A stretch of DNA of 48,522 nucleotides from Clostridiales bacterium (GTDB lineage Bacteria > Actinomycetota > Coriobacteriia > Anaerosomatales > SLCP01): positions 1 to 48,522 of the forward strand of contig JAGXSG010000023.1 of assembly GCA_018333995.1 (NCBI GenBank), written 5' to 3'. The notes below the pieces were generated by a model, which did not search any database, was not told where the DNA came from, and saw nothing but the letters and a program-made list of their open reading frames with translations. The translations under genes were made by a program, and so were the position numbers. Below, piece by piece: positions 5,253-47,992 of the stretch; within the stretch, counting starts at the first letter, position 1, and each line of letters starts with the position of its first letter.

Positions 5253-5416
5253 CGTCTGCCGCCCCTCTTCAATCGTGCGGTCAATTCCTTCCTAGTCAGG
5301 GTAGTGTACCCACTTCAAGCCCTTCCCGTTAGCATTGCGCCGTGAAGCGGGAACAATCGTCCTACACCCGACCGCTCCAACCAGCCCGATCCACCACCGC
5401 CACGGAAGAGACGCCG

Positions 5417-6886
5417 ATGCCCCGAGCACCGCGCTGCATGAGCACCCAGCACCCCGACAATGTCACCGTCCCGTTCTTCGCGGAGCGTGCCGATCTCGGC
5501 GGAGAAGATGAGGTGACCGAGGCGTACTACGCGTACTCGCATCTTGGCTGCGACGAGCAGATGTGGGACGTCGAGGGCAAGGAGGTCGACGCCTTCGTCG
5601 TCAAGAAGCTGCTCACGCGCTATGAGGACTACTTCCACGCCAATCGGCTCGGAGACGATGTTCGCCTCACCCTCCGCGTGCCAAACCCAACCGTCGAGCG
5701 CGCGGAAGCGAAGGTGCTGCTCGAGACCCTTGAGAGCATCCCGCGCTCGTACGATGCTGCGCGTCTGTTCTACGGCGGGGAAGATATCCCGCCGCCGATC
5801 TTCGAGGTCATCTTGCCGATGTGCGCCTCCCACCTCTACGTGGAACGCATTCGCCGCTACTACCGTGAGCACATCTACAAACGCCAGTTTCTGCCGTTCT
5901 TCGACGGCGACATCACCATTGGCGAGTGGATCGGGCAATTCCTTCCCGCTGATATCGAAGTCATCCCTCTGTTCGAAGATCGCGACCACATGCTCGCGGC
6001 GGACACGATCCTCAGCCGCTACCTCGACTCGTTCGAGGGTCCCGAACAACGCGTCTTCCTAGCCCGCTCGGATCCCGCCATGAACTACGGAATGCTCAGC
6101 GCGGTCCTGCTCAACAAAGTCGCGCTCGCTCGACTCCACCGCCTTGCCGAGAGCCGTGGCATCACCATCCAACCGATCATCGGCGTAGGCTCCGCACCGT
6201 TTCGCGGCAATCTCACGCCACGCACGGTACATCGAGTGGCCGAAGAGTACCCGAGCGCTGTGACGTTCACCGTGCAATCAGCGTTCAAGTACGACTACCC
6301 CCCGGCCGAGGTCGTCGAGGCCGTGCAAAGCCTGCGCGAGCGAGAGGTGAGGAGGCCCGCGGAGATTGATGAGGAGCGTGCGGTGGATCTCATCGATCGT
6401 TTCGCTGCGGAGTACCGCTCACACGTCGTGGAGCTCGCGCCGCTCATCAACTCGACCGCCGCCCACATCCCGTCCCGTCGGCGCCGCAAGTTGCACATCG
6501 GCTTGTTTGGATACGCGCGTGACGTCGAAGGCATCACCCTGCCACGAGCCATCTCGTTTACGGGCGCGCTCTACTCACTTGGCGTACCGCCTGAGCTGTT
6601 CGGCCTTTCGGCGCTCACCGACGACGACGTCCGGTTCCTTGAAAACGCGTATCCCGGCTTCATGTTCGATCTCGCGGACGCGGCTCGCTACTGGGATCGA
6701 GACAGCGACCTCATGCCAGCCGCCGTCCGCGCCGCCGCCGGGCGCCTTGGCCTGGACGGAGTCGAGCGCGACGAGGCACATATCGCGCTGTCTCGAAACA
6801 TCCGGGCGACCATCGAAGCTGGCGGGCGGGAAAGCGCCACGGCACAGCTCGTGGCGGCGGGGCAGATTCGGCGATTCCTCGGCTGA
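5417..6886 (+). CDS. ppcA: Archaeal-type phosphoenolpyruvate carboxylase
   Basis: A 489-residue enzyme that fixes bicarbonate onto PEP to give oxaloacetate, feeding the TCA cycle and biosynthesis. The signature CMSTQHPDN at residues 7-15 is the hallmark of the short archaeal-type family (about 480-540 residues, unlike the 900-residue bacterial form). GVGSAPFRGNL supplies the conserved PEP/bicarbonate-site loop. The ATG at 5417 is preferred over an in-frame GTG at 5342 because family members begin 6-8 residues before MSTQHPDN and because GGAAGAG precedes it. It is monocistronic and divergent from the activase operon. The archaeal-type form occurs in scattered anaerobic bacteria and suggests old lateral acquisition. 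All visible motifs are intact. Confidence 0.92.
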   Translation: MPRAPRCMSTQHPDNVTVPFFAERADLGGEDEVTEAYYAYSHLGCDEQMWDVEGKEVDAFVVKKLLTRYEDYFHANRLGDDVRLTLRVPNPTVERAEAKVLLETLESIPRSYDAARLFYGGEDIPPPIFEVILPMCASHLYVERIRRYYREHIYKRQFLPFFDGDITIGEWIGQFLPADIEVIPLFEDRDHMLAADTILSRYLDSFEGPEQRVFLARSDPAMNYGMLSAVLLNKVALARLHRLAESRGITIQPIIGVGSAPFRGNLTPRTVHRVAEEYPSAVTFTVQSAFKYDYPPAEVVEAVQSLREREVRRPAEIDEERAVDLIDRFAAEYRSHVVELAPLINSTAAHIPSRRRRKLHIGLFGYARDVEGITLPRAISFTGALYSLGVPPELFGLSALTDDDVRFLENAYPGFMFDLADAARYWDRDSDLMPAAVRAAAGRLGLDGVERDEAHIALSRNIRATIEAGGRESATAQLVAAGQIRRFLG

Positions 6887-25876: not shown

Positions 25877-26947
25877 TCATCCAACTGCCCCACTGCGACG
25901 ACCAACGATGCGCTGGACTACCATCTCGATAATCTCGGAAAGCTCCGCGACCTCACATGCCGCTCCGCACTCAATCGCGGCTCGCGGCATGCCCCACACC
26001 ACGGCGCTGCTCTCCGCCTCGGCGACGGTGTACGCGCCGGCGTCGCGCATCGCACGAAGACCCTCAGCTCCGTCGGTGCCCATCCCGGTTAAAAGGACGC
26101 CCATCGCCGAAGCCCCGATGACATCGGCGGCCGATTTCATCGCCACATTCACCGAGGGGGCATGCGCTGTATTTGTTGGCCTCTTGTCGAGCTTCAACAC
26201 ACGCTTTCCATTGACGCGCTTCATGTGAACATGCATACCAGCCCTGCCGATGAGGACGCGGCCTCCCTCAAACAAGTCGCCGTCGCAGACCTCGCGAACC
26301 GGAACACGGGCGCACATGTCGAGACGCGATGCGAGAGCGGCGGTGAACCCCACCGGCATGTGCTGAATGACAAGCACCGGCGTATCGAGATGCGGGGGAA
26401 GCGCCAACAGCAACGCCTTAAGCGCAGCCGGTCCTCCCGTGGAGCAGCCTACGATGAGGGCATCCGTCACCGGATCGCCTTCGCGCGCTCCCACCGCGCC
26501 GATCGGGGCATTCTCGTTTCCGCGCCGGTCGTGAGCGCATAGCGTCGCAACATCAACGGATGCCGCCGCCCGAATCTTTTCGAGCAGCTCTGCGCTTATG
26601 CGCGACATGTTCATGTGGGTAAAACCTGAGGGCTTGCTCACAAAATCAACGGCGCCCGCTTCGAGTGCGGACAGGGTGTGCGTGGCGTTTTCTGTCGTTA
26701 CCGAGCTCAGCATGATAGTCGGCACCGGACTGACCCGCATGATCTTGGTAAGCACCGTGACACCGTCTTCACCCGGCATCACCACATCAAGGGTTATCAC
26801 GTCTGGCTTGAGCGCCGGAATCAACTCCAACGCTTGGCGACCCGACCCCGCCGCGCCTACCACTTCAATGTCTGGCGCCGAGGAAAGAATGCGCGTGATC
26901 GCCCTGCGCATGAATGGTGAATCATCGACTACCAGTACCCTGATCAT
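25877..26947 (-). CDS. cheB: CheB protein-glutamate methylesterase
   Basis: A 356-residue chemotaxis adaptation enzyme. The receiver domain (about 1-120) has D8/D9 and phospho-acceptor D54 (TLDVVMPGEDG). The esterase domain (about 165-350) has the catalytic Ser in VGCSTGGPAAL, His in VIQHMPVGFTAAL, and Asp in GMGTDGAEGL. Phosphorylated CheB removes methyl groups from, and deamidates, the receptor. ATG 26947 (MIRVLVVDDSPFMRR) is the family start with AAGGGG ahead; a longer upstream reading has no such signal. It is the last gene of the nine-gene chemosensory operon, 37 nt after cheR. Confidence 0.95.
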   Translation of the reverse strand: MIRVLVVDDSPFMRRAITRILSSAPDIEVVGAAGSGRQALELIPALKPDVITLDVVMPGEDGVTVLTKIMRVSPVPTIMLSSVTTENATHTLSALEAGAVDFVSKPSGFTHMNMSRISAELLEKIRAAASVDVATLCAHDRRGNENAPIGAVGAREGDPVTDALIVGCSTGGPAALKALLLALPPHLDTPVLVIQHMPVGFTAALASRLDMCARVPVREVCDGDLFEGGRVLIGRAGMHVHMKRVNGKRVLKLDKRPTNTAHAPSVNVAMKSAADVIGASAMGVLLTGMGTDGAEGLRAMRDAGAYTVAEAESSAVVWGMPRAAIECGAACEVAELSEIIEMVVQRIVGRRSGAVG

Positions 26948-26984
26948 GTAGTTCGGACCCCTTCGACCCCGCAAAGCCAACGAG

Positions 26985-27815
26985 TCATGCCATATCAACG
27001 GGCTTGCGATACCCGATCGCTTTGCCAACCTGAACCATTTCCAGGGTATTAGTCACGTTGAACAGCGACTCAGAATGTCCAACGAACAGGTGACCCGCCT
27101 CGCGCGTCACGCCAATCAGCCCATCGAGAGCCCTCAAGCGACTCGCCGCATCGAAGTAGATCATAACGTTGCGGCACAGCACGATATCGAACATGCCGAG
27201 CGAGCGCATTCTCCTTGTGTCCACCAAGTTCGCCTGCGAGAAGGACACGCGGCGGCGGAGCGCTTCGTCAATGCGCAACACTCCGTCAACCGGCTTGAAA
27301 TACCAATCGAGGTATCGTCCCTCCGCACTTCGGAATGAGTTGCTCGTGTACTTCGCATGCCTTGCCTTTTCAAGCGCACGACTCGAAATGTCGACTCCGT
27401 GTATCTCGACACGCCGCTCGACATCGAACAGTCCCGCTTCGTGGAGCAGCATGGCGATCGTATACGGCTCCTCTCCCGTAGAACACCCTGCCGAGAGGAT
27501 CCGGACAGAACGCGCTTTCGCTGGAGCATCCCGTACGATGTCGAGAATGGCCTCAATCTGACCAATCTCGCGAAAGAAGTACGTCTCGTTGTTGACGATC
27601 GCGTCGACCGCCCGTTCGAGCTCGAGGCCGTCACCGTACTTGAGCAGGTGATAATACTCGGTGAAATCCGCTGCCTGGGTGGCCTGCATCGCTTTAGCGA
27701 GCTTGCGCGCGAACGTGGGCATTGCCTCCTCTGGCGGATATATGCCGCAGTGTTCGGAAAACAGCTGCCGCATGAGCCGGAACTCGTACGGACGCATCTC
27801 GAACATGGCGCTCAT
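26985..27815 (-). CDS. cheR: CheR-family methyltransferase (operon copy 2)
   Basis: A 276-residue SAM-dependent methyltransferase that methylates receptor glutamates. The N-terminal helical domain (about 1-75) is followed by VNNETYFFRE, the SAM loop LSAGCSTGEEPYTIAML, IHGVDISSRALEKAR, and LCRNVMIYFD. No TPR or other C-terminal extension. Its ATGA start overlaps the stop of the HEAT-repeat gene, so the two are coupled. This is one of two CheR proteins here; they differ considerably in sequence, so they are not a recent duplication, and may act on different substrates. Confidence 0.94.
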   Translation of the reverse strand: MSAMFEMRPYEFRLMRQLFSEHCGIYPPEEAMPTFARKLAKAMQATQAADFTEYYHLLKYGDGLELERAVDAIVNNETYFFREIGQIEAILDIVRDAPAKARSVRILSAGCSTGEEPYTIAMLLHEAGLFDVERRVEIHGVDISSRALEKARHAKYTSNSFRSAEGRYLDWYFKPVDGVLRIDEALRRRVSFSQANLVDTRRMRSLGMFDIVLCRNVMIYFDAASRLRALDGLIGVTREAGHLFVGHSESLFNVTNTLEMVQVGKAIGYRKPVDMA

Positions 27816-30256
27816 GAGACGCCGTTCGGTGAGGCGGACTCAGCATGAAGCGTGGCCGCGATCGCGGCGGCGACCGCCACGTCCTTCTCCACAACAAGCG
27901 CATTCCGCAATTCGTCGACCAGCGCCCCTGGCTCATCGCTCACTGAAAGGCCAAGCGCAGCGGCCCATCGGCTATCGGTATCTGAGGCCCGAAGTTGAAC
28001 GGCTAGGTACGACAGCGCCTCGGGCGTTCCGATACGTCCAAGCGCGAGACACGCGATCGCGCGCCGCTCATCAACCGTACTTGCGGCGTGCGCGAGGAGC
28101 TGGGAAACAGCGGCGGCTCCCAGTGATACGAGGCTCTCGGCTGCGTGCTGCGACAGGAGACTGTCGTCGAGAAGCGCGATCAGCCGCTCTGGTGCGGCGG
28201 GATCGGAAACGCCCGCCATCGCGCGCACCGCACGGATCCGAACGAGTGGCTCAGGATCGCTGATGACTCGCTCTAGCAGGTTAGAAGCCTCCGGCGCGTC
28301 GCATGACTCGAGAGCCTCAACTGCGGCGAGCCGGACGTTCCAGCTCTCCTCTTGTCCGCCGAGCACCCGTGCCGCCACTTCACAGACACCCGGCCAGCCA
28401 AGCGCGAGGAGTGCTCGAAGCGCTGCCTCTCGCACGTCGGGGACTGCGTGCTCAACGTGCTCGGCCACTGCGGGGATCTCCCGGGAGCCTCCGCACTTGC
28501 CTAGTGCCGCCAACGCTGCGACGACCACACCTGGATCCGAGCTGTGGAGCAGGCTCCGCATCAACTCGATGTCCTCCGGCGAGGCCTCGACAGCAAGGCC
28601 CTTCACCGCCGCTGCCGTGATCGATGTCGAACCTTCCTCTACGGCTTGACGCAGGACCCGCCTTGCCGTCGGCTCGTTTCGTGTCGCGAGCGTTCGAATT
28701 GCAGTCACTCTGAGCAGATGATCCACGTCGAGCGCCAGAGTAAAGAGCACCGATAACGCCTCGTGTCCGGGAATCATCCCGAGCGCGGGAGCAACCTGGC
28801 GCCTCACGAGCGGGCTCGGATCACGGGCCAAGGTAAGAGCGATGTCCCAGAGCGCTTCGTCCCCAGACCGCTCCGGTAGACTAGCGAGCATCCGCGCGAC
28901 TGACTCACGTACGCGCTCGTCACCCAGCTCCACTGACTTGCCGAGCGCACCGGCAACACGCAGTGGCCCGAGACCAGCAAGCGCCTCTGCCGCCGCGAAT
29001 CTGATCTCATCGAACTCATCGTGAAGCAGATCTACGAACACCTCGATGTGCTCAGCTCCACCTAGTCTCGCGAGGGCTTCGATGGCCCCGGTGCGAACTG
29101 ACATATTCTCGTCACCCGTTAACCGCAGGAGACGGGGAACGTCCCGCTCATCGCCAGCGGCGGCGAGCGCGCGCACCAGCACTGAGCGGACCGCGGGAAA
29201 CGAACTCCGCTCGGCGGCGTCAAGTTGCGACCTCACAGCTTCGAGATTCTCCGCAAGGAAGCTCGATGCGTCCTCGATCAGATCTGAGGTTTCGGCAGCC
29301 TGGCACACCGAAGGGGCAAACGACGGATCGCCGAGCCACAAGGCGACCACCATGCCCGCCGCTCTGTCGGGACCCTCGCTGCGAAGCGCCGCGTTGACTG
29401 CATCACGCAACGTGGTGGGCGCCGAGTCACGCACGTCAGCGGTGATACGTCGAAACACCGGCCTGGTTCCGTCGTCGATCACCTTGATGATTCCTGCCAA
29501 CGCGCGAACGACACAGGCGCCGTAGAATGCGCTTGCATTCGCCGCCGAGTGCACAAGCGGCACAAGGGAGCGCACGTCCCCGATCCGCCCGAGAGCCTCA
29601 GCGCACGCGGCACCGATCGGATCGTCACCCAGCTTCCCAGCGAGCTGGCGGATCGCCCGTTTTGAGGCGATCGTACCGAGCGCTTCAGCCGCGGCCACAG
29701 AGGCGAACGTGTTCTCCTCAAGCACCTCCAGTAGCGCATGTACCGCGCTCTCGTCGCCTATACACCCAATCGCCTCGATCAGCATGTGGCGTACGTTCTC
29801 GTCCTCTTCGGTATCGAGCATCGGGATGAGATGCGCCAGGGCCGCCGGATCACCGATCTGTCCCAACGCGAGCGCCGAGAAGTTCCGTACATCCGCGACG
29901 TCCGAAGAGAGGTGTTCCACAAGAACCGCAATCGACTCACCGCTGCGCTTGATAAGCGCCTTGATCGCTGCGTTACGCTCGCCGGCATTCTCGGAATACA
30001 GCAGATCGCCCAAGAGCGCGGACGCGTCAACATCCGAGTCAACGGCCAACGCCTGGGCGGCGGAACGGCGAACTCGCCAGTCACTATCCGCAAGTGACTC
30101 GACCAGCCCAAGGACAGCGCCCGCGCCCCGGTCGATTCGAAGCCGCTCTACCTTTCGCCGACGCCGCTCGCCATGGTCGAGAGACTCGAGGTCGTCTGCG
30201 CCTATCGCAATCTCGGCCGAGGCGGCTGAAGAGCGAAACGCCGCGGAACTATCCAT
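27812..30256 (-). CDS. Large HEAT-repeat protein within the chemosensory operon
   Basis: An 814-residue soluble protein built almost wholly of HEAT/PBS-lyase-type helical repeats of about 31 residues. Examples are DWRVRRSAAQALA, PLVRIRAVRAMAGVSDPAAP and EPTARRVLRQAVEEGSTSI; by eye there are some two dozen. No signal peptide, membrane segment or catalytic motif is seen. Such solenoids are protein-binding scaffolds. It starts inside the end of the first cheR (8-nt overlap) and ends inside the start of the second (4-nt overlap), so it is tightly bound to this system. In haloarchaea a HEAT-like protein links CheY to the motor apparatus, which offers a precedent. Its partner here is unknown, and the length of 814 residues is exceptional for a che operon. 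Confidence 0.88.
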   Translation of the reverse strand: MDSSAAFRSSAASAEIAIGADDLESLDHGERRRRKVERLRIDRGAGAVLGLVESLADSDWRVRRSAAQALAVDSDVDASALLGDLLYSENAGERNAAIKALIKRSGESIAVLVEHLSSDVADVRNFSALALGQIGDPAALAHLIPMLDTEEDENVRHMLIEAIGCIGDESAVHALLEVLEENTFASVAAAEALGTIASKRAIRQLAGKLGDDPIGAACAEALGRIGDVRSLVPLVHSAANASAFYGACVVRALAGIIKVIDDGTRPVFRRITADVRDSAPTTLRDAVNAALRSEGPDRAAGMVVALWLGDPSFAPSVCQAAETSDLIEDASSFLAENLEAVRSQLDAAERSSFPAVRSVLVRALAAAGDERDVPRLLRLTGDENMSVRTGAIEALARLGGAEHIEVFVDLLHDEFDEIRFAAAEALAGLGPLRVAGALGKSVELGDERVRESVARMLASLPERSGDEALWDIALTLARDPSPLVRRQVAPALGMIPGHEALSVLFTLALDVDHLLRVTAIRTLATRNEPTARRVLRQAVEEGSTSITAAAVKGLAVEASPEDIELMRSLLHSSDPGVVVAALAALGKCGGSREIPAVAEHVEHAVPDVREAALRALLALGWPGVCEVAARVLGGQEESWNVRLAAVEALESCDAPEASNLLERVISDPEPLVRIRAVRAMAGVSDPAAPERLIALLDDSLLSQHAAESLVSLGAAAVSQLLAHAASTVDERRAIACLALGRIGTPEALSYLAVQLRASDTDSRWAAALGLSVSDEPGALVDELRNALVVEKDVAVAAAIAATLHAESASPNGVS

Positions 30257-31133
30257 GAAGTTCGCCTCCGGTTCGCAGCGGGGAAGCGGAAAGGGGTCGG
30301 CGGTAGAGTGCCACCCGGCCGTAATTCCGTGTCTCGAAGAGGTTGGGGATCTGGTGGATCAAGTCGGCCTCGCCGGTCAACAGCCAACCGCCTGGAACGA
30401 GCGAGTCCCACAAGCGCCTAATCAGCCTCTCGCGGGCGTCAGTTGACAGGTACATCATCACGTTGCGGCATAACACGAAGTCCTGACCGCGCACGGGTAG
30501 CGTCCCAAGCAAATTGCGCACGGCAAACCTCGTGTTCCTGCGGATCTCCTCGGAAACAGATATCATGCCCTCCGCATCCGCCACGGTGTAGCGGTCAAAC
30601 AACGATCTAAACTCACGGCCGCACGATCCCTCTTCGGGCTCGCGATACACGCCGCGCCGGGCGGTTGCGATCGCCGAAGCGGAGATATCCGTACCCACCA
30701 CCGTGTAGGGCAAATCCCTGCCTTCACGGGTACACTCGGCGGCGAGCATTGCCAAGGAGTAGGCCTCTTCTCCACTTGCGCATCCGGCTGACCAGACTCG
30801 TAAGGGCATCTTGCGCTCGATAGCCCGCTTGCATACATCAGGCAGAACCTCTTCACGCAAGAGGCGCATCTGACCGGCATCCCGGAACAGACGTGTCTCT
30901 TGCACTGTCACCTCGCCCACCAGCCTCTCCACCAGCGCCGAGCCTGTCCCCGGCGCATCCAGAAGCGTCTCGAGTTGCTCCCACGTTGTCGCGCCATTCT
31001 CCCGCATCACAGCGGCCAGAGCACCGGCGGCGCGATACTCCCAGCGCTTGTCTAGACGCACGCCAGCGGTCTCGATCGCGCGTTGCTCAAAGTACCTGCG
31101 GAAGTCCTTTGGTGCGAGGATAGAACCCGTCAC
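30249..31133 (-). CDS. CheR-family methyltransferase (operon copy 1)
   Basis: A 294-residue CheR-type methyltransferase. It has a helical N-terminal region, VTVQETRLFRDAGQ where the usual N-E-T-x-F-F is replaced, the SAM loop WSAGCASGEEAYSLAML, VVGTDISASAIATAR, and LCRNVMMYLS. The departure from NETYFFR at the substrate-side loop, together with weak similarity to the other CheR, suggests a separate substrate. The GTG start follows GGGGGCGG; the gene begins 12 nt after the receptor gene, the usual place for the receptor-specific enzyme. It overlaps the HEAT gene by 8 nt. Confidence 0.9.
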   Translation of the reverse strand: MTGSILAPKDFRRYFEQRAIETAGVRLDKRWEYRAAGALAAVMRENGATTWEQLETLLDAPGTGSALVERLVGEVTVQETRLFRDAGQMRLLREEVLPDVCKRAIERKMPLRVWSAGCASGEEAYSLAMLAAECTREGRDLPYTVVGTDISASAIATARRGVYREPEEGSCGREFRSLFDRYTVADAEGMISVSEEIRRNTRFAVRNLLGTLPVRGQDFVLCRNVMMYLSTDARERLIRRLWDSLVPGGWLLTGEADLIHQIPNLFETRNYGRVALYRRPLSASPLRTGGELHG

Positions 31134-31145
31134 GTACCGCCCCCG

Positions 31146-33185
31146 TCACTTCAGCTTGAAGCCTTCGACTACTTCTCGGAGGTTGGATGATTGCTCGGCC
31201 AAGTTGCCCGCGGCTCTAGCAAGCTCCGTGATTCCGTCCAGATTCGTCCGCGTCGCCTGGGCGATGTTTTCCATCGCCATGACCATGTGCTCGCCCCCGC
31301 GCTTCTGTTCACCGGTCGCCGAGACAACCTGAGAAACAAGGTTCGTCATGTGTTCGACCGCAGTCACGATCTGCTGCGAACCATGCGCTTGCTCCTGGAT
31401 CGCGGTGTCTACCTGACGGTGGAGCAGCTTCATCTCGTCGACCTCAGCGAGCACCGTGCGTCCGCTTCGCACCTGTTCAGCGGTGGCCGAACTAATCTCA
31501 CGCATCGCCTCGATCACTTCATCGAAAGTCTCGCTGATGCCGTGGAGAGTCGCTTTCGCCTTGTCGCTCACAGCGCGAGACTCTAGCGCCCTCTTGGCGC
31601 TCGTCAGTGTGGACTCGACAGCGTGCTCCGTGTCTTCCCTGATGGTGGCGATCAGCGCGCTGATTTCCTTCGTGGATTCTGTCGAACGCTCGGCTAGCTC
31701 ACGAACCGCCTCAGCCACAACCGCGAAGCCACGGCCGTGTTCGCCGGCGCGCGCCGCTTCAATCGCGGCGTTGAGCGCAAGTAAGTTGGTCTGCTCGGCG
31801 ATATCATCGATGACCCCCGTGATCTCCCCGATCTCCTTGCTGCGCTTGCCCAGACTCTTGACCACCTCGACAGTGCCTTCGATCGACTCCGCGATGGCAG
31901 CCATCGCGTCGGCCATCGACTCGACCTTGTCAACGCCCTCGTTGGCCGCCTTTCCGGCCTCATCCGTCATCTTGGACACGCGATCCGCGCTCTCGGCGAC
32001 CCGCTCCGTCGACTCGATGACCTGCTGGATGCCGTTCGCGGTGCTTGCCACCACCGTAGACAGCCCCTCAACGCTGTGAGCGATCTGTTCGACAGACGCG
32101 GCCATCTCACTAATGGTCGCGGAGGTTTCATCGGCGCTCGAACCAAGTTGCTCGGCGCTCGATGCAACCTGATCGATGGAGGCGGCCATCTCCTCCATCG
32201 AGACGCTCGTCTCCTCCGTTGCCGAGGACTGCGTCTCCGCGCCCTCGCTGATCATCCTAGTCGTCGCCGATATCTGCTCGGCAGCGGTCGCAAGGTCATC
32301 CGAGGAGGTCTTGATGGTGCCAATGATGAGCGAGAGTTTCTCGGTCATCTCATTGAGCGCGATGGCGAGGTCTCCGAGCTCATCACCTGAGCGGGCGTGC
32401 ATACGGGTAGACAGGTCTCCAGAGGCGATCGTCTCCGCGAAGGCGACCGCACGGCGGAGCGGCACCGTAATCTGACGGGAGATGAACCAGCCCACGCCAA
32501 CCGACGCGAGCACGCTCAGAACCAAGATGACAGCCATTATGGAATACGCGAGCACCTGGGTCTGCTCGGCGCTCTGCTGCGCTGCCTGGATGTCAGCTTC
32601 CACAACCGACTCAAGCTCATCAAGAGCCACGAAAAGCTCTTCGCGCTTCCCGTCAAAGGTCCCCATGTACTCAAAGATCGACATGCCAGTACCGATGTCG
32701 GCACCGCCCTGCAAATTGCGCACGTGCGCACGAACCATCTCGCCGCCCGCCTCGAAGAACGTCTCATACGCCGCGATTGCCCTGTTTAGCGCCTCAACTC
32801 CTGCGGCGCTCTCCATCCTCTCCAGTCCCAGCTCTGCGTCACCCTGCTGGAGAGCGGTCAGCAAGCGTCTCGCCTCAGCGTCGTAGGTGTCAGCCTCTCC
32901 CGAAACCGCACGCGCCTCGCTCGGGGTGATCTGGATGAGGGACTCTGTGTACAAGTCACTGAGCTTCATGGCTGCGACCTGCGCGTCGTGAGTGGTGATA
33001 GTGCGGGGGATATGTTCGTGCACTATCCGGTTGGACGCATTGGCGACGCGCTGCACCGACATAATACCGGCCACGGCCGCGAGCACGACGATCGCCGCAA
33101 CCACAAGAAAACCCAGCGTCAACTTCACGCGCACTGTTCGCTGCATTCGTGGAAGCTGCTTTGGCAACGGGATTCTGAACTTCAT
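31146..33185 (-). CDS. Methyl-accepting chemotaxis protein
   Basis: A 679-residue transmembrane receptor. TM1 is about residues 24-44, an extracytoplasmic helical sensor about 45-210 (four-helix-bundle-like), TM2 about 212-234, then HAMP (about 235-290) and a long signalling domain. The hairpin tip [20 protein letters not shown] and then [20 protein letters not shown] is conserved and binds CheA/CheW. Ala/Glu/Ser-rich stretches on either side provide methylation sites. The C-terminus (EVVEGFKLK) lacks a CheR-tethering pentapeptide. ATG 33185 is chosen for its basic pre-TM1 segment and GAGGAAAGGG upstream. Being the only receptor in the operon, it is probably the dedicated input; ligand unknown. 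Confidence 0.95.
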
Positions 33186-33210
33186 CTTCTCGACCCTTTC
33201 CTCTCGAGCC

Positions 33211-33744
33211 TCAACCGGCAAGGCTTCCCATGGCGTCGGTCTCTTCCTGCGAGAACATCATTTCGAGATCGAGCACGACGACCATACCGCGCTCCACCCT
33301 GCACACACCTTCCACGAACTCGGTGCCGACGCCGGCCGCAAGATCCGGGAGGCGCTCGACCTCGAGCGAGGAGACGCGAACCACCTCCACCACGGCATCA
33401 ACGACAAGTCCTATCGTCCGAGCGCCAACGTGCACGATAATGATGCGGGCGGTCTTTCCGAGCGCCTCAGCGGTAAAGCCAAACCGTTTACGTAAATCCA
33501 CTACGGGGACGAGGCGACCGCGGAGATTGATCACGCCTTCAACGAACCGTGGCGCGTTGGGGATCGCGGTGATCTTCATTGCGCTGTACCGGATAATCTC
33601 CTGCACTTTGCCGATGTGGAATCCAAACTCGTCCTTCGCGAGCAGAAGCGTGACCAGCTGAAGCGTGTCCGCATCACTGACACGAGCTTCCCTGACAGAA
33701 CTTAGGTCCTCATCGAGCACTTTGGGTGCGCGTTTTCGCGCCAT
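33211..33744 (-). CDS. cheW: CheW adaptor protein
   Basis: A 177-residue scaffold linking receptor to CheA. After an N-terminal extension of about 25 residues comes the CheW fold: [52 protein letters not shown], and [14 protein letters not shown], all typical. The C-terminus [14 protein letters not shown] is also family-like. Its ATG (33744) overlaps the cheA stop as TGATG. The N-terminal extension is longer than in enteric CheW (167 residues in total there) but unremarkable. Confidence 0.93.
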
Positions 33745-35783
33745 CAACGGACCCCACCTCCCACGACCGTTTCGTTCTTGGAACGCCCGGCGATTAAGTC
33801 AACCACGCCGTCCACGTCTATGATGGGCACCACAGAACCATCGCCAAGAATCGTCGCGCCCCCGATACCCGGTGTGCGACCGAGGGTTTCCTCGAGATTC
33901 TTGACCACTACCTGCTGCTGGCCGACAAGCGCGTCAACCAGCACGCCGAGCCGATGGCCTACCCCTGAGACCACTACCACGAATCCTTTACCGGTATGGC
34001 TCGGCTCCTCCTCGAAACCGAGCGTATGACCTAGATCGACTACCGGTAGCGAGTGTCCGCGTAAGTCCATGACCTGCGACCCCTTGATCGTGCGGATTTC
34101 GCCTCGGTCGACTCGCAATACCTCCGCAACCGATGCGAGGGGGATCGCGAACGCACGCTCTTCCTCGCTGACAAGCAGCGCTGACATGATCGCGAGCGTC
34201 AGCGGCAAGCGCATCGTAAACGTCGTTCCGCCGCGAAACTCTGTCTCGAACTGAATCGTTCCACCGAGTTCCGCGAGCTTCTTGCGCACGATGTCCATGC
34301 CGACACCGCGTCCCGAGATATCGGTGATCGTCTCGGCGGTGGAAAAACCCGAGCCTGTGATGATATCGACGATCAAAGCGTCGCCGATCTCCTCGTCGGA
34401 GCTAATCCTGCCTTGCTCAACCGCTTTGTTCCAGATTGCGCCGACATCGAGGCCTTTCCCATCATCCCGGGTCTCGATGAATACGTAATTGCCCTCATGA
34501 CCCGCCGCCAACGTGATGGTTCCTTGCCGGGGTTTTCCCGCCGCAACTCGCTCTTCCGGTGTCTCAATCCCGTGGTCGCAGGCGTTCCTCACCATGTGCA
34601 ACAGTGTCTCTTCGACCTGTTCTATCAGACGTTTGTCGAGCTCGGTCTCCTCGCCCTCGAACACAAGCTGAATCTCCTTGCCGGACCAACGCGCAATGTC
34701 GCGGACGGTGCGATGGAATTTCGAGAACAACTGATTCACCGGTACCATGCGCAACCGCATCACTTGGTCCTGTAACCCATCCACGAGCCGTGACAGATCT
34801 TTCGCCGCACCCGCGAGTAGCTGCACGGACTCATCTTTTCGGTTGGCCGCCTTGATCTCGCCCACCAGATCCTCAAGTCTCGTCCGCGCGGTGACAATCT
34901 CGCCGGTCAGGTCCATAAGCTCGTCGAGTCGCCCTATGTCGACTCGGATGATGTGCTGCGCGCTCGCGGCTACTGTCGGCTCGCATACTTCCGCATCCGA
35001 TTTCTGGAGATCCCCGGTACCAGCGATCGTACGTATTGTCGACACACTCACGCCGAGGTTGTCCCCGATCTCGGCATCGGTGATGTCGGTGAGCGCAACA
35101 ACCTCGAATGTCACGTCGGTACGCGCCGAGTCAGCCTCAAAGATCATGGGTATGTCGTCGAGGAGCGGCCGGGCTTCGAGCACCTCCCCCTTGCCGAGCG
35201 CACGTTCGATCGCGCTGATCCGGAGAGCACCGAGCCGAAGTTCGATTCCCCACCTCAGCAAGAGCCTCACCGCCCGAAGCCCTTCGTCCGGCGCCTCGGC
35301 TATCCGCGCCTGTGCGTACTCGCCGAGACCGGCAAGCCCCGTCGGCGTCCGGTCTGCATTCTCCGTGACTGGCACCGAATCGAGCAGGGCGTCAATCGCG
35401 CGCACCGCGTCGCGTGCGGAACCAACTACTTCACCTTCCCCGGCGGACACAGCAGCCAGCGCATCCCGCAGTGCGTCCACCCCGCGGAACAGCACCTCTA
35501 GACACGCCTCGTCGACCGCACGCTCCTTCTTTCGGAACGCCTGGAACACGCTTTCCATGACGTGCGAAAGATTCTTGATGTCGTCGAAATCGAACATCGC
35601 CGCGAGACCCTTGATGGTGTGGGTCGCGCGAAACATGTTCTCAATCAGGTCATCCGGTGCTTCGTCCGTGAGATAGATCCGCTCCAAAGCGAGCAGATCA
35701 TCGTCGAGCGACCGGAGGTACTCGTCGGCCTCGACGATGAACTCCTGCACGAGAGACGCATCGTTGAACTCTTCGGGGGCCAT
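33744..35783 (-). CDS. cheA: CheA chemotaxis histidine kinase
   Basis: A 679-residue kinase. The Hpt (P1) domain has the phosphorylatable H55 in ATHTIKGLAAM. Residues about 130-265 form a linker with a possible P2 domain binding CheY/CheB. P3 dimerisation follows (VDIGRLDELMDLTGEIVTAR), then the P4 ATPase with N box VRNACDHGIETPEER, G1 DDGKGL, and G2 DISGRGVGMDIVRKKL. The CheW-like P5 domain closes the protein. One Hpt domain and no fused receiver means a standard layout, not a multi-Hpt pilus-type CheA. The start lies 11 nt after cheY. Confidence 0.95.
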   Translation of the reverse strand: MAPEEFNDASLVQEFIVEADEYLRSLDDDLLALERIYLTDEAPDDLIENMFRATHTIKGLAAMFDFDDIKNLSHVMESVFQAFRKKERAVDEACLEVLFRGVDALRDALAAVSAGEGEVVGSARDAVRAIDALLDSVPVTENADRTPTGLAGLGEYAQARIAEAPDEGLRAVRLLLRWGIELRLGALRISAIERALGKGEVLEARPLLDDIPMIFEADSARTDVTFEVVALTDITDAEIGDNLGVSVSTIRTIAGTGDLQKSDAEVCEPTVAASAQHIIRVDIGRLDELMDLTGEIVTARTRLEDLVGEIKAANRKDESVQLLAGAAKDLSRLVDGLQDQVMRLRMVPVNQLFSKFHRTVRDIARWSGKEIQLVFEGEETELDKRLIEQVEETLLHMVRNACDHGIETPEERVAAGKPRQGTITLAAGHEGNYVFIETRDDGKGLDVGAIWNKAVEQGRISSDEEIGDALIVDIITGSGFSTAETITDISGRGVGMDIVRKKLAELGGTIQFETEFRGGTTFTMRLPLTLAIMSALLVSEEERAFAIPLASVAEVLRVDRGEIRTIKGSQVMDLRGHSLPVVDLGHTLGFEEEPSHTGKGFVVVVSGVGHRLGVLVDALVGQQQVVVKNLEETLGRTPGIGGATILGDGSVVPIIDVDGVVDLIAGRSKNETVVGGGVR

Positions 35784-35794
35784 TGACAGATCGC

Positions 35795-36166
35795 CTAGTC
35801 CTCAAACCGATCGATGATCGAATGCAGCTTCTGCGGTTGAAACGGTTTCACGAGGTACTCTGTGGCGCCGGCGAGCATCCCCTTACGAATGTCCTCGTCG
35901 CTTCCCTCAGTCGTGAGCACCACGATCGGCAAGCTCCGCTTGTCCGGATCCTTGCGGATCGTCTGGATCAACTCGAGGCCGTTCATCTCCGGCATGTTGA
36001 TGTCCACGACCATGAGGTCAGGGACTCGCTCGGCGACTCGCTCAAGCGCCTCCACACCGTTTGCCGCCTCCCTGATCTGACACCCCCAATACTTGCCGAG
36101 GGCAAACGACACCAGCATCCTCATTGTCTTTGAATCATCGACTATGAGGACGTCTCCAAGTTGCAT
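35795..36166 (-). CDS. cheY: CheY-type single-domain response regulator
   Basis: A 123-residue receiver domain. D10/D11 (IVDDSKTMRM), phospho-acceptor D55 or so in VVDINMPEMNG, T in VLTTEGSDED and the Lys of LVKPFQPQKL are all in place. There is no output domain, so it acts by binding another protein: a motor switch, or conceivably the HEAT-repeat protein. GGAAGGGAG precedes the ATG, and it begins 3 nt after the STAS gene. The sequence after the acidic pair (SKTMRMLVSFAL) matches the CheY group found next to cheA. Confidence 0.92.
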   Translation of the reverse strand: MQLGDVLIVDDSKTMRMLVSFALGKYWGCQIREAANGVEALERVAERVPDLMVVDINMPEMNGLELIQTIRKDPDKRSLPIVVLTTEGSDEDIRKGMLAGATEYLVKPFQPQKLHSIIDRFED

Positions 36167-36169
36167 GAC

Positions 36170-36502
36170 TCACTCCCTTCCAGTAGAGCTGGCCACCTGA
36201 TCAGTAGCTACGTCTACGACGTCGAACACGGTGTCCAGCCTCCACTCGGCAAACGAACGTGCGATATCCGCGCTTGCGGCCACGGTAAGTGACCTGCCTG
36301 TTGGCATCGAGGAAGCGGCACGCAAGATAACCGCGAGACACGCTCCGTCTATCACATGGGCATCTCGCAGGTCGACGCGTATGTCCCCAGCGCCGACGTC
36401 CAGCGCCTCAGTGATTCCGCGTCTCAACGCGTCGAGCCCCTCGGGGCCCCTCGGGTCAGGTGCGGTCACCACGTGGAGCCTGACCGCTCTTCTGGCACTC
36501 AT
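36170..36502 (-). CDS. STAS-domain protein heading the chemosensory operon
   Basis: A 110-residue protein with the fold pattern of anti-sigma-factor antagonists: IRVDLRDAHVIDGACLAVIL is the central strand-helix, followed by SLTVAASADIARSFAEWRLD. In SpoIIAA/RsbV proteins the segment after the D carries a phosphorylated Ser (D-S-x-G); here it reads DGAC, so the usual site is missing. That suggests a non-phosphorylated, purely structural interaction role. No anti-sigma kinase is nearby. STAS proteins are known to be attached to some chemosensory clusters. It is the first gene of the operon, with GGTGAG before its ATG. Confidence 0.75.
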   Translation of the reverse strand: MSARRAVRLHVVTAPDPRGPEGLDALRRGITEALDVGAGDIRVDLRDAHVIDGACLAVILRAASSMPTGRSLTVAASADIARSFAEWRLDTVFDVVDVATDQVASSTGRE

Positions 36503-46662: not shown

Positions 46663-47079
46663 ATGTTCGTGCTCATCGTGGGAGGCGGCAAGGTCGGTGC
46701 GGCGCTAGCGCAGGAACTCGGCGACACCGGCCACACGTGCCGCGTCATCGAACAGGACCCCGCGCGTGTCGAGCACCTCGCGGAGGATCACCCTGCTCTC
46801 GATGTGCTGAGAGGCGATGGCTGTGAGCCCGTCGTTCTCGAATCCGGCCGAATCACTCAAGCGGACGCGGTTGCCGCGGTGACCGGTCACGACGAAGACA
46901 ACCTCGTTGTATGCCTGCTCGCCAAGCGGGAGTACAGTGTCCGGGTCACCGTCGCGCGCATCAACGACCCGCGCAACGAGTGGTTATTCACTGAGATGTT
47001 CGGGGTCGACCACACAGTGTCGAGCACCCGGATGATGGCGCACATCCTCGATGAGCATCTCGAGGGGACGAGCGCGTAG
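46663..47079 (+). CDS. TrkA-type RCK-N protein
   Basis: A 138-residue single RCK-N (Rossmann) domain with MFVLIVGGGKVGAALAQELG and VIEQDPARVEHL; the ribose-binding acidic residue is E34 in VIEQD. GDGCEPVVLESGRITQADAV and VTGHDEDNLVVCLLAKREYS are typical of the domain. It has no TrkA-C domain, so it probably pairs with the upstream two-domain protein, as in KtrA-like octameric rings; that is inference. AGGAGGA precedes the ATG, and the gene starts 13 nt after the first RCK gene. Third and last gene of the ATPase operon. Confidence 0.9.
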   Translation: MFVLIVGGGKVGAALAQELGDTGHTCRVIEQDPARVEHLAEDHPALDVLRGDGCEPVVLESGRITQADAVAAVTGHDEDNLVVCLLAKREYSVRVTVARINDPRNEWLFTEMFGVDHTVSSTRMMAHILDEHLEGTSA

Positions 47080-47179
47080 CCGGTCACCTCGCGGACCATG
47101 CCAATGGGTGGGTATCTACTGTTGCGTCGGCCGGTCGGGCCCGTATCGGCCGCACACCCTTACATGCGAGGAGCAACCC

Positions 47180-47992
47180 GTGCCACACGCCATCTGGAAG
47201 GGCTCGATATCATTTGGCCTCGTGACGATTCCAGTAACTCTCTATCCTGCCGAGGAACGCCGCGACCTCTCGTTTAGGATGCTCGACAGGCGAGATCTCA
47301 CCCCCGTCAAGCAACTGCGCGTTAACGCGCGAACCGGAAAGGAGGTGGCGTGGGGGGAGATCGTCAAAGGCTACGAGCTCGAGGACGGCCGGTTCGTGGT
47401 CGTGACAGAAGAGGACTTCCGCGCCGCCGACGTCGAAGCAACCCGTACGATAGACGTGCTCGGCGCTGTGTGCGCGGATGAGATCGATCCGGCTTACTAC
47501 GACAAGCCCTACCACCTCGAACCCGCGCTTTCCGGACGGAAAGCGTACGCGCTCCTGCGTGAAACGTTGCGCCGTACCAAGCGCGTCGCACTCGCCAAGG
47601 TGGTGATCCGCACGCGCCAGCATCTTGCCGCGCTCGTCCCCCACGGACCGCTGCTCATGCTCGAGATCCTGCGCTACCCGCACGAGCTTCGCGCAGCCGA
47701 TACGCTGAAGCTGCCCCCGGCAGACATCACCGAGGCCGGCCTGACCGAAACCGACCTCGCGATAGCGGCGCAGCTGGTTGAGATCATCTCGCGCCCGTTC
47801 GACCCATCCGCCGAGGAGTACCGCGACACGTACCGGGACGCCGTACTGGCGCTCATCGAACGCAAGGCCGAAGGTGGCGCGGTAGCCGCACCGGAAGAGG
47901 TGCCGGAGGCGTGGGCCGAGACCGGCGAGGTCATCGACATCACGGAACTGCTCAAAGCGAGCCTCGAAGCCGCGCGAGCGCGTACGTCGTGA
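47180..47992 (+). CDS. ku: Ku DNA-end-binding protein (bacterial NHEJ)
   Basis: A 270-residue bacterial Ku: a homodimeric ring that threads onto double-strand break ends and recruits LigD. The opening AIWKGSISFGLVTIPVTLYP is diagnostic, as are KEVAWGEIVKGYELEDGRFV, YYDKPYHLEPALSGRKAYAL, and RTRQHLAALVPHGPLLMLEI. The C-terminal tail (about 240-270) is acidic to mixed. GTG 47180 follows GAGGAG by 6 nt. It is directly followed by ligD, so both halves of the NHEJ machinery are encoded together. Confidence 0.96.
   Translation: MPHAIWKGSISFGLVTIPVTLYPAEERRDLSFRMLDRRDLTPVKQLRVNARTGKEVAWGEIVKGYELEDGRFVVVTEEDFRAADVEATRTIDVLGAVCADEIDPAYYDKPYHLEPALSGRKAYALLRETLRRTKRVALAKVVIRTRQHLAALVPHGPLLMLEILRYPHELRAADTLKLPPADITEAGLTETDLAIAAQLVEIISRPFDPSAEEYRDTYRDAVLALIERKAEGGAVAAPEEVPEAWAETGEVIDITELLKASLEAARARTS

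Follow-up and report, generated by a model that had tools for sequence, protein, structure and literature searches.

The window analysed here, a stretch of 48,522 nucleotides, contains a chemosensory operon of nine genes on the minus strand. The operon runs from position 36502 down to 25877 in the order STAS, CheY, CheA, CheW, MCP, CheR1, HEAT, CheR2 and CheB, and its genes are joined by overlaps or short gaps. This gene order had been proposed in a sequence-only reading of the window, and all nine open reading frames were found to be present. Pfam supports CheB, both CheR proteins, HEAT_2, the MCP with its 4HB and HAMP domains, CheW, CheA and CheY. The flanking genes are of the housekeeping type (carbamoyl-phosphate synthase large chain, a His_biosynth-family protein and a CobT-type phosphoribosyltransferase), and a promoter scan found nothing usable. 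Elsewhere in the window, a Ku-family DNA-repair protein gene lies near the end (47051-47992) and a phosphoenolpyruvate carboxylase of the PEPcase_2 type, a family associated with archaea, is encoded at 5342-6886 in this actinobacterial host.

The first gene encodes a small STAS protein (36170..36502). Its STAS_2 score of 24.8 bits is below the 29.2 cut-off, and a 47% identical homologue is found in the same place in a second genome of the host family, G003. In both proteins another residue stands in place of the serine that is normally phosphorylated (IDGACLAV). CheY (35795..36166), a single-domain response regulator, was identified by Pfam and is 40-46% identical to most of the CheA-adjacent CheYs of other HEAT clusters, M. 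xanthus Che7 included. CheA (33744..35783) carries Hpt, H-kinase_dim, HATPase and CheW domains and lacks a receiver domain. The CheW gene (33211..33744), also recognized by Pfam, was assigned from its context an ATG start at 33744 that overlaps the CheA stop, and an alternative TTG start at 33747 is possible. The MCP (31146..33185) is a transmembrane receptor with a 4HB sensor, a HAMP domain and a long cytoplasmic hairpin, as indicated by Pfam, its transmembrane segments and the position of its tip. It most likely starts at ATG 33185, judging from an opening (MKFRIP) that is conserved in relatives. Approximately 197 residues separate HAMP from the tip and approximately 199 follow the tip, which by length gives about 28 heptads per arm. 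No NWETF-like tail was found on this MCP.

CheR1 (30249..31133), the HEAT-repeat protein (27812..30256) and CheR2 (26985..27815) follow. The HEAT gene overlaps both methyltransferase genes, as the earlier reading had noted, by 8 nt with CheR1 and by 4 nt (ATGA) with CheR2. A 4-nt overlap of HEAT and CheR (GTGA) recurs in an unrelated deltaproteobacterium. The further claim that these overlaps tie the HEAT protein stoichiometrically to adaptation does not follow, since an overlap does not fix stoichiometry; the overlaps suggest translational coupling at most. The last gene, CheB (25877..26947), encodes a receiver and a methylesterase domain and scores above the cut-off of NCBIfam NF001965 in addition to its Pfam match. 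Its start was corrected: the gene most likely begins at ATG 26947, 37 nt past CheR2, because both relatives begin with MIRVLVVDD, and TTG 27028 is disfavoured.

The HEAT protein is 814 residues long and matches Pfam HEAT_2 with an E-value of 7.6e-81 over 12 stretches. An AlphaFold model computed from two sequences is all-helical, with approximately 50 helices, and predicts an alpha-solenoid at modest confidence (mean pLDDT 65, pTM 0.40). Conservation across phyla is highest in the repeats of the N-terminal third. A profile built from chemosensory HEAT proteins gave a generic HEAT protein a score no lower than that of the protein of the window. Thus, the profile cannot separate chemosensory from generic HEAT proteins, and the assignment of orthology (Cpc7-like by position) rests on synteny and on the neighbouring CheR.

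Two CheR lineages and the recurrence of HEAT-CheR-CheB

The two methyltransferases share 28-29% identity. A tree of 107 CheR domains, a sample gathered with both CheR1 and CheR2 as queries, placed all 12 HEAT-adjacent CheRs, CheR2 among them, on one side of a single, weakly supported branch (support 49), and none of 500 shuffles gave a value as low. CheR1, which is kept between species, was found apart from CheR2, among M. xanthus CheR5-like and Wsp-like CheRs. The proposal that the operon holds two different CheRs is thus borne out, with separate origins for the two, and the identity and the differing tree positions exclude CheR1 as a duplicate of CheR2. The NETxFF loop, in which one of the enzymes had been singled out for its variant (VTVQETRLF), is unremarkable: among approximately 100 CheRs the first residue varies freely and LF replaces FF in four, so the variant does not mark a special enzyme. 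A scan of genome contigs with CheR1 returned mostly generic CheRs, together with a deltaproteobacterial HEAT cluster and Myxococcus genomes, and a scan of viral contigs returned no CheR1 relatives.

The CheR1 scan led to 23 genomes, which were searched with a CheR2 profile, and the neighbourhoods of the best matches were read. Each of the ten best-scoring matches adjoins a HEAT gene (one of them, Delta AUK157, was itself part of the profile). The hosts are M. xanthus (two loci), Corallococcus, Nitrospiraceae (two), Desulfuromonadales, Deltaproteobacteria MAGs (two), Oscillatoriales and Gemmatimonadetes. As in the window, where the HEAT gene is immediately 5' of CheR and CheB, the context is a cheA-cheW cluster. 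For example, M. xanthus and Gemmatimonadetes share the order CheY-CheA-CheW-MCP-HEAT-CheR-CheB, and the Oscillatoriales locus reads CheA-CheW-MCP-HEAT-CheR-CheB. A locus from a different class of the host phylum (G633) has the order CheB, a HEAT-like protein (388 aa, by eye), an HDOD-like protein, CheR, CheY, CheA and CheW, with the HEAT-like and HDOD-like genes at L216:3763-5826.

By protein size, the first M. xanthus locus matches Che7 (CheY7 125, CheW7 148, CheR7 273 and CheB7 348) and the second matches Che8 (CheA8 862, CheR8 290 and CheB8 345), compared with published tables (PMC3945109). The HEAT gene of the Che7 locus falls at the otherwise unassigned MXAN_6961. The operon had been thought to represent a set known from no standard bacterial class; the HEAT-CheR-CheB core is instead that of M. 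xanthus Che7 and Che8 and of several further loci. A Geobacter paper considered as a source of HEAT precedents does not mention HEAT. A single CheR per operon is common among the loci read, and the operon of the window has two. In the other HEAT loci, no second CheR was seen between the MCP and HEAT, and no STAS gene was detectable with the window STAS as query.

Two further features of these clusters are recorded here. The Che7-like HEAT proteins of the cyanobacterium and of Gemmatimonadetes (L180:5736-8810 and L181:10990-13650) have an N-terminal extension that appears PAS-like by eye. In addition, two distant Che8-like clusters encode, between CheW and HEAT, a receiver-like protein with the shared motif SLYGADDY(V/I)E(Q/K)HHIPD (L173:7786-8556 and L177:13037-13954).

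The host genome and its relatives

The rpoB of the host groups with a Micromonosporaceae record and other genomes of the same phylum (SH-aLRT 99), and the host is therefore a member of Actinomycetota. In a MAG titled Williamsia sp. (L246, the genome of L044), rpoB groups with Dyadobacter, and this record is probably mislabelled or mixed. The host genome (1.95 Mb in 34 contigs, 98.9% complete) encodes two CheA proteins, four MCPs, seven type IV pilus/secretion ATPases that pass the T2SSE-family cut-off and 11 GGDEF domains. A search of this genome for FliG_C gave no match. The system therefore does not fall in the flagellar (F) class, and its output is likely non-flagellar because FliG is missing from a nearly complete genome. 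The suggestion of a non-motility output, made from the lack of a flagellar gene in view, is thereby supported in its non-flagellar part. A look through the genome for flagella, type IV pili and diguanylate cyclases had been proposed, and the FliG_C search and the counts of ATPases and GGDEF domains given above cover these three.

The second chemosensory cluster of the genome (C14) encodes a CheR that is long (535 aa) and by eye has TPR-like repeats, together with CheY, a GspE/PilB-like protein, two CheW, a short MCP, a CheA with a receiver and CheB. It looks like a pilus-type cluster, and such clusters are common in the order of the host. In this cluster the GspE/PilB-family protein is encoded between CheY and CheW (L026:9273-11249) and could provide a direct connection from the array to pili. 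The C14 MCP has 144 residues after the tip and the other two MCPs of the genome have similarly short frames. Since the frames of these receptors are shorter, the long MCP of the window is probably dedicated to its own array.

The operon is present in three of nine genomes of the host family (the host, G003 and G005), and the other six do not have it. G003 has the full operon from STAS to CheB, and G005 retains CheR1-HEAT-CheR2-CheB, with the remainder cut off by a contig end. Within the family the operon is thus whole (in one case cut by the contig) or absent, and no otherwise identical operon lacking HEAT was found, a finding that would have counted against the HEAT protein as a part of the system. 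The second CheA cluster of G001 was considered as a HEAT-less version and was ruled out by its CheC-like gene, its different order and a CheA identity of 36%. A close CheR2 is found only in these three among 298 genomes of the class, and a full HEAT protein only in these three among 398 genomes. Such a sporadic distribution is in keeping with an accessory system that is mobile or frequently lost. The CheR-HEAT-CheR order, for which a search had been suggested, is kept, followed by CheB, in the two other family species and so is not due to chance, and a CheR in the position of CheR1 was not seen in the other HEAT loci. HEAT is 60-61% and CheR2 approximately 81% identical to the counterparts in these two species, and the identity of the MCP is 80%; thus HEAT evolves faster than CheR2 or the MCP.

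Candidate roles of the HEAT protein

The gene set, its order, the genome context and the recurrence of HEAT-CheR-CheB in many phyla were observed directly, and from here we infer the steps of a mechanism. The reading we prefer, at about an even chance of being correct, is a Che7/Che8-like system for a non-flagellar output in which HEAT serves as the output adaptor of CheY-P. The membrane receptor, CheW and CheA would form an array separate from the pilus-type array of the genome, and CheA would phosphorylate CheY and CheB. CheY-P may then dock on HEAT, with the conserved N-terminal third of the solenoid (approximately residues 31-180) as the most likely site, and HEAT would relay the signal to type IV pilus activity or to the control of genes or development. 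Adaptation in this class would be the task of CheR2 and CheB. CheR1, which comes from another lineage, would be a second active methyltransferase and supply an additional methylation input to the same or another receptor, and STAS may be an unphosphorylatable partner module. To our knowledge, Cpc7 of M. xanthus is the only bacterial HEAT chemosensory protein that has been studied. Binding of HEAT to CheY, as the sequence-only reading had suggested, is plausible by analogy because Cpc7 is reported in a review to interact with CheY7 and to regulate development (PMC11514114).

In the HEAT loci, however, HEAT adjoins CheR and never CheY, which indicates CheR as the partner and argues against the CheY-adaptor reading. 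The HEAT profile result given above and the MCP length and CheA placement described below also count against that reading. The main rival is an adaptation scaffold, in which HEAT is a detached alpha-solenoid that localises or regulates CheR2, the task that a fused TPR domain has in the CheR-TPR proteins of other non-flagellar systems. In nearly all loci the HEAT gene immediately precedes CheR, often with an overlap, whatever the remaining cluster contains. In addition, the HEAT-adjacent CheRs group in the tree, are mostly 270-295 aa, and in no case carry a TPR-sized extension, while CheR-TPR fusions typify clusters with alternative functions (PMC3447774), as the long CheR of C14 illustrates. 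The reported binding of Cpc7 to CheY7 and the HDOD gene between HEAT and CheR in the other actinobacterial class speak against a scaffold, which we regard as possible but rather unlikely; it and the CheY-P adaptor could both hold. Their evidence combined would favour a bridge, with CheY-P and CheR bound on one solenoid and output coupled to adaptation, and the predicted length of HEAT (approximately 24 helix pairs) would be enough for two surfaces. Both contacts are predictions, and this arrangement is considered quite improbable. That HEAT is a passenger with no signalling role could be argued from its sequence, which a profile alone does not assign to an orthologous family. Its recurrent position beside a single group of CheRs across many phyla and the all-or-none operon of the host family make this very improbable.

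A broader proposal, which remains speculative and which we would not expect to hold, is that HEAT-CheR-CheB is a defined class of at least six phyla. In this class a free HEAT solenoid would replace the CheR-fused TPR and couple CheY-P output to receptor methylation, and the window branch would have recruited a Wsp/Che5-like second CheR and STAS. The presence of HEAT-CheR-CheB in many phyla, including small flagellum-less actinobacteria, provides a comparative set for the role of the solenoid in binding CheY-P, CheR or both. The two CheR lineages and one dedicated long receptor of the window variant make methylation specificity testable.

Comparison with known chemosensory systems

The haloarchaeal system resembles the operon in having a HEAT protein, OE2401F, encoded in the che region and required for the signal to the motor. 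The interaction partners of this HEAT_PBS protein are CheD and the CheF-type OE2402F, and motor switching requires it (PMC2666748). The haloarchaeal system differs in its archaellum and in CheF, CheC and CheD; none of these three is in the window operon, and no CheF (DUF439) domain was found among its nine proteins. Pilus-type and Wsp-type systems, such as the C14 cluster, are likewise non-flagellar, and CheR1 is nearest to the CheRs on that side of the tree. However, these systems have a CheA with a receiver and a CheR-TPR fusion and lack HEAT. In the CheA phylogeny that had been recommended for classification, the window and G003 CheAs are outside the receiver-bearing clade (100/99) and are not placed within the Che7/Che8 clade (96/96). 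A single clade of all HEAT-system CheAs was not rejected (AU p 0.26).

HEAT-CheR-CheB and a CheA without a receiver are also found in M. xanthus Che8 and in a Desulfuromonadales cluster that resembles it, whose CheR, CheA and HEAT are by score slightly nearer to those of the window than the Che7 counterparts are. They differ in having at least two CheW, an extra CheY and no MCP in the cluster, and lack CheR1 and STAS. Che7 (CheY7-CheA7-CheW7-Mcp7-Cpc7-CheR7-CheB7) has nearly the same core order, with HEAT right before CheR and CheB, a CheA without a receiver, a single-domain CheY and a CheR of one group with CheR2. The operon differs from Che7 by the addition of CheR1 and STAS and in that its CheA is not placed within the Che7 clade. 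Furthermore, Che7-type MCPs have approximately 336-429 residues after the tip, and Mcp7 has no transmembrane segment, whereas the window MCP is transmembrane with the shorter arm given above. HEAT beside CheR and CheB is therefore known from Che7 and Che8, and the novelty of this variant lies in its CheR1, its STAS and its long transmembrane receptor.
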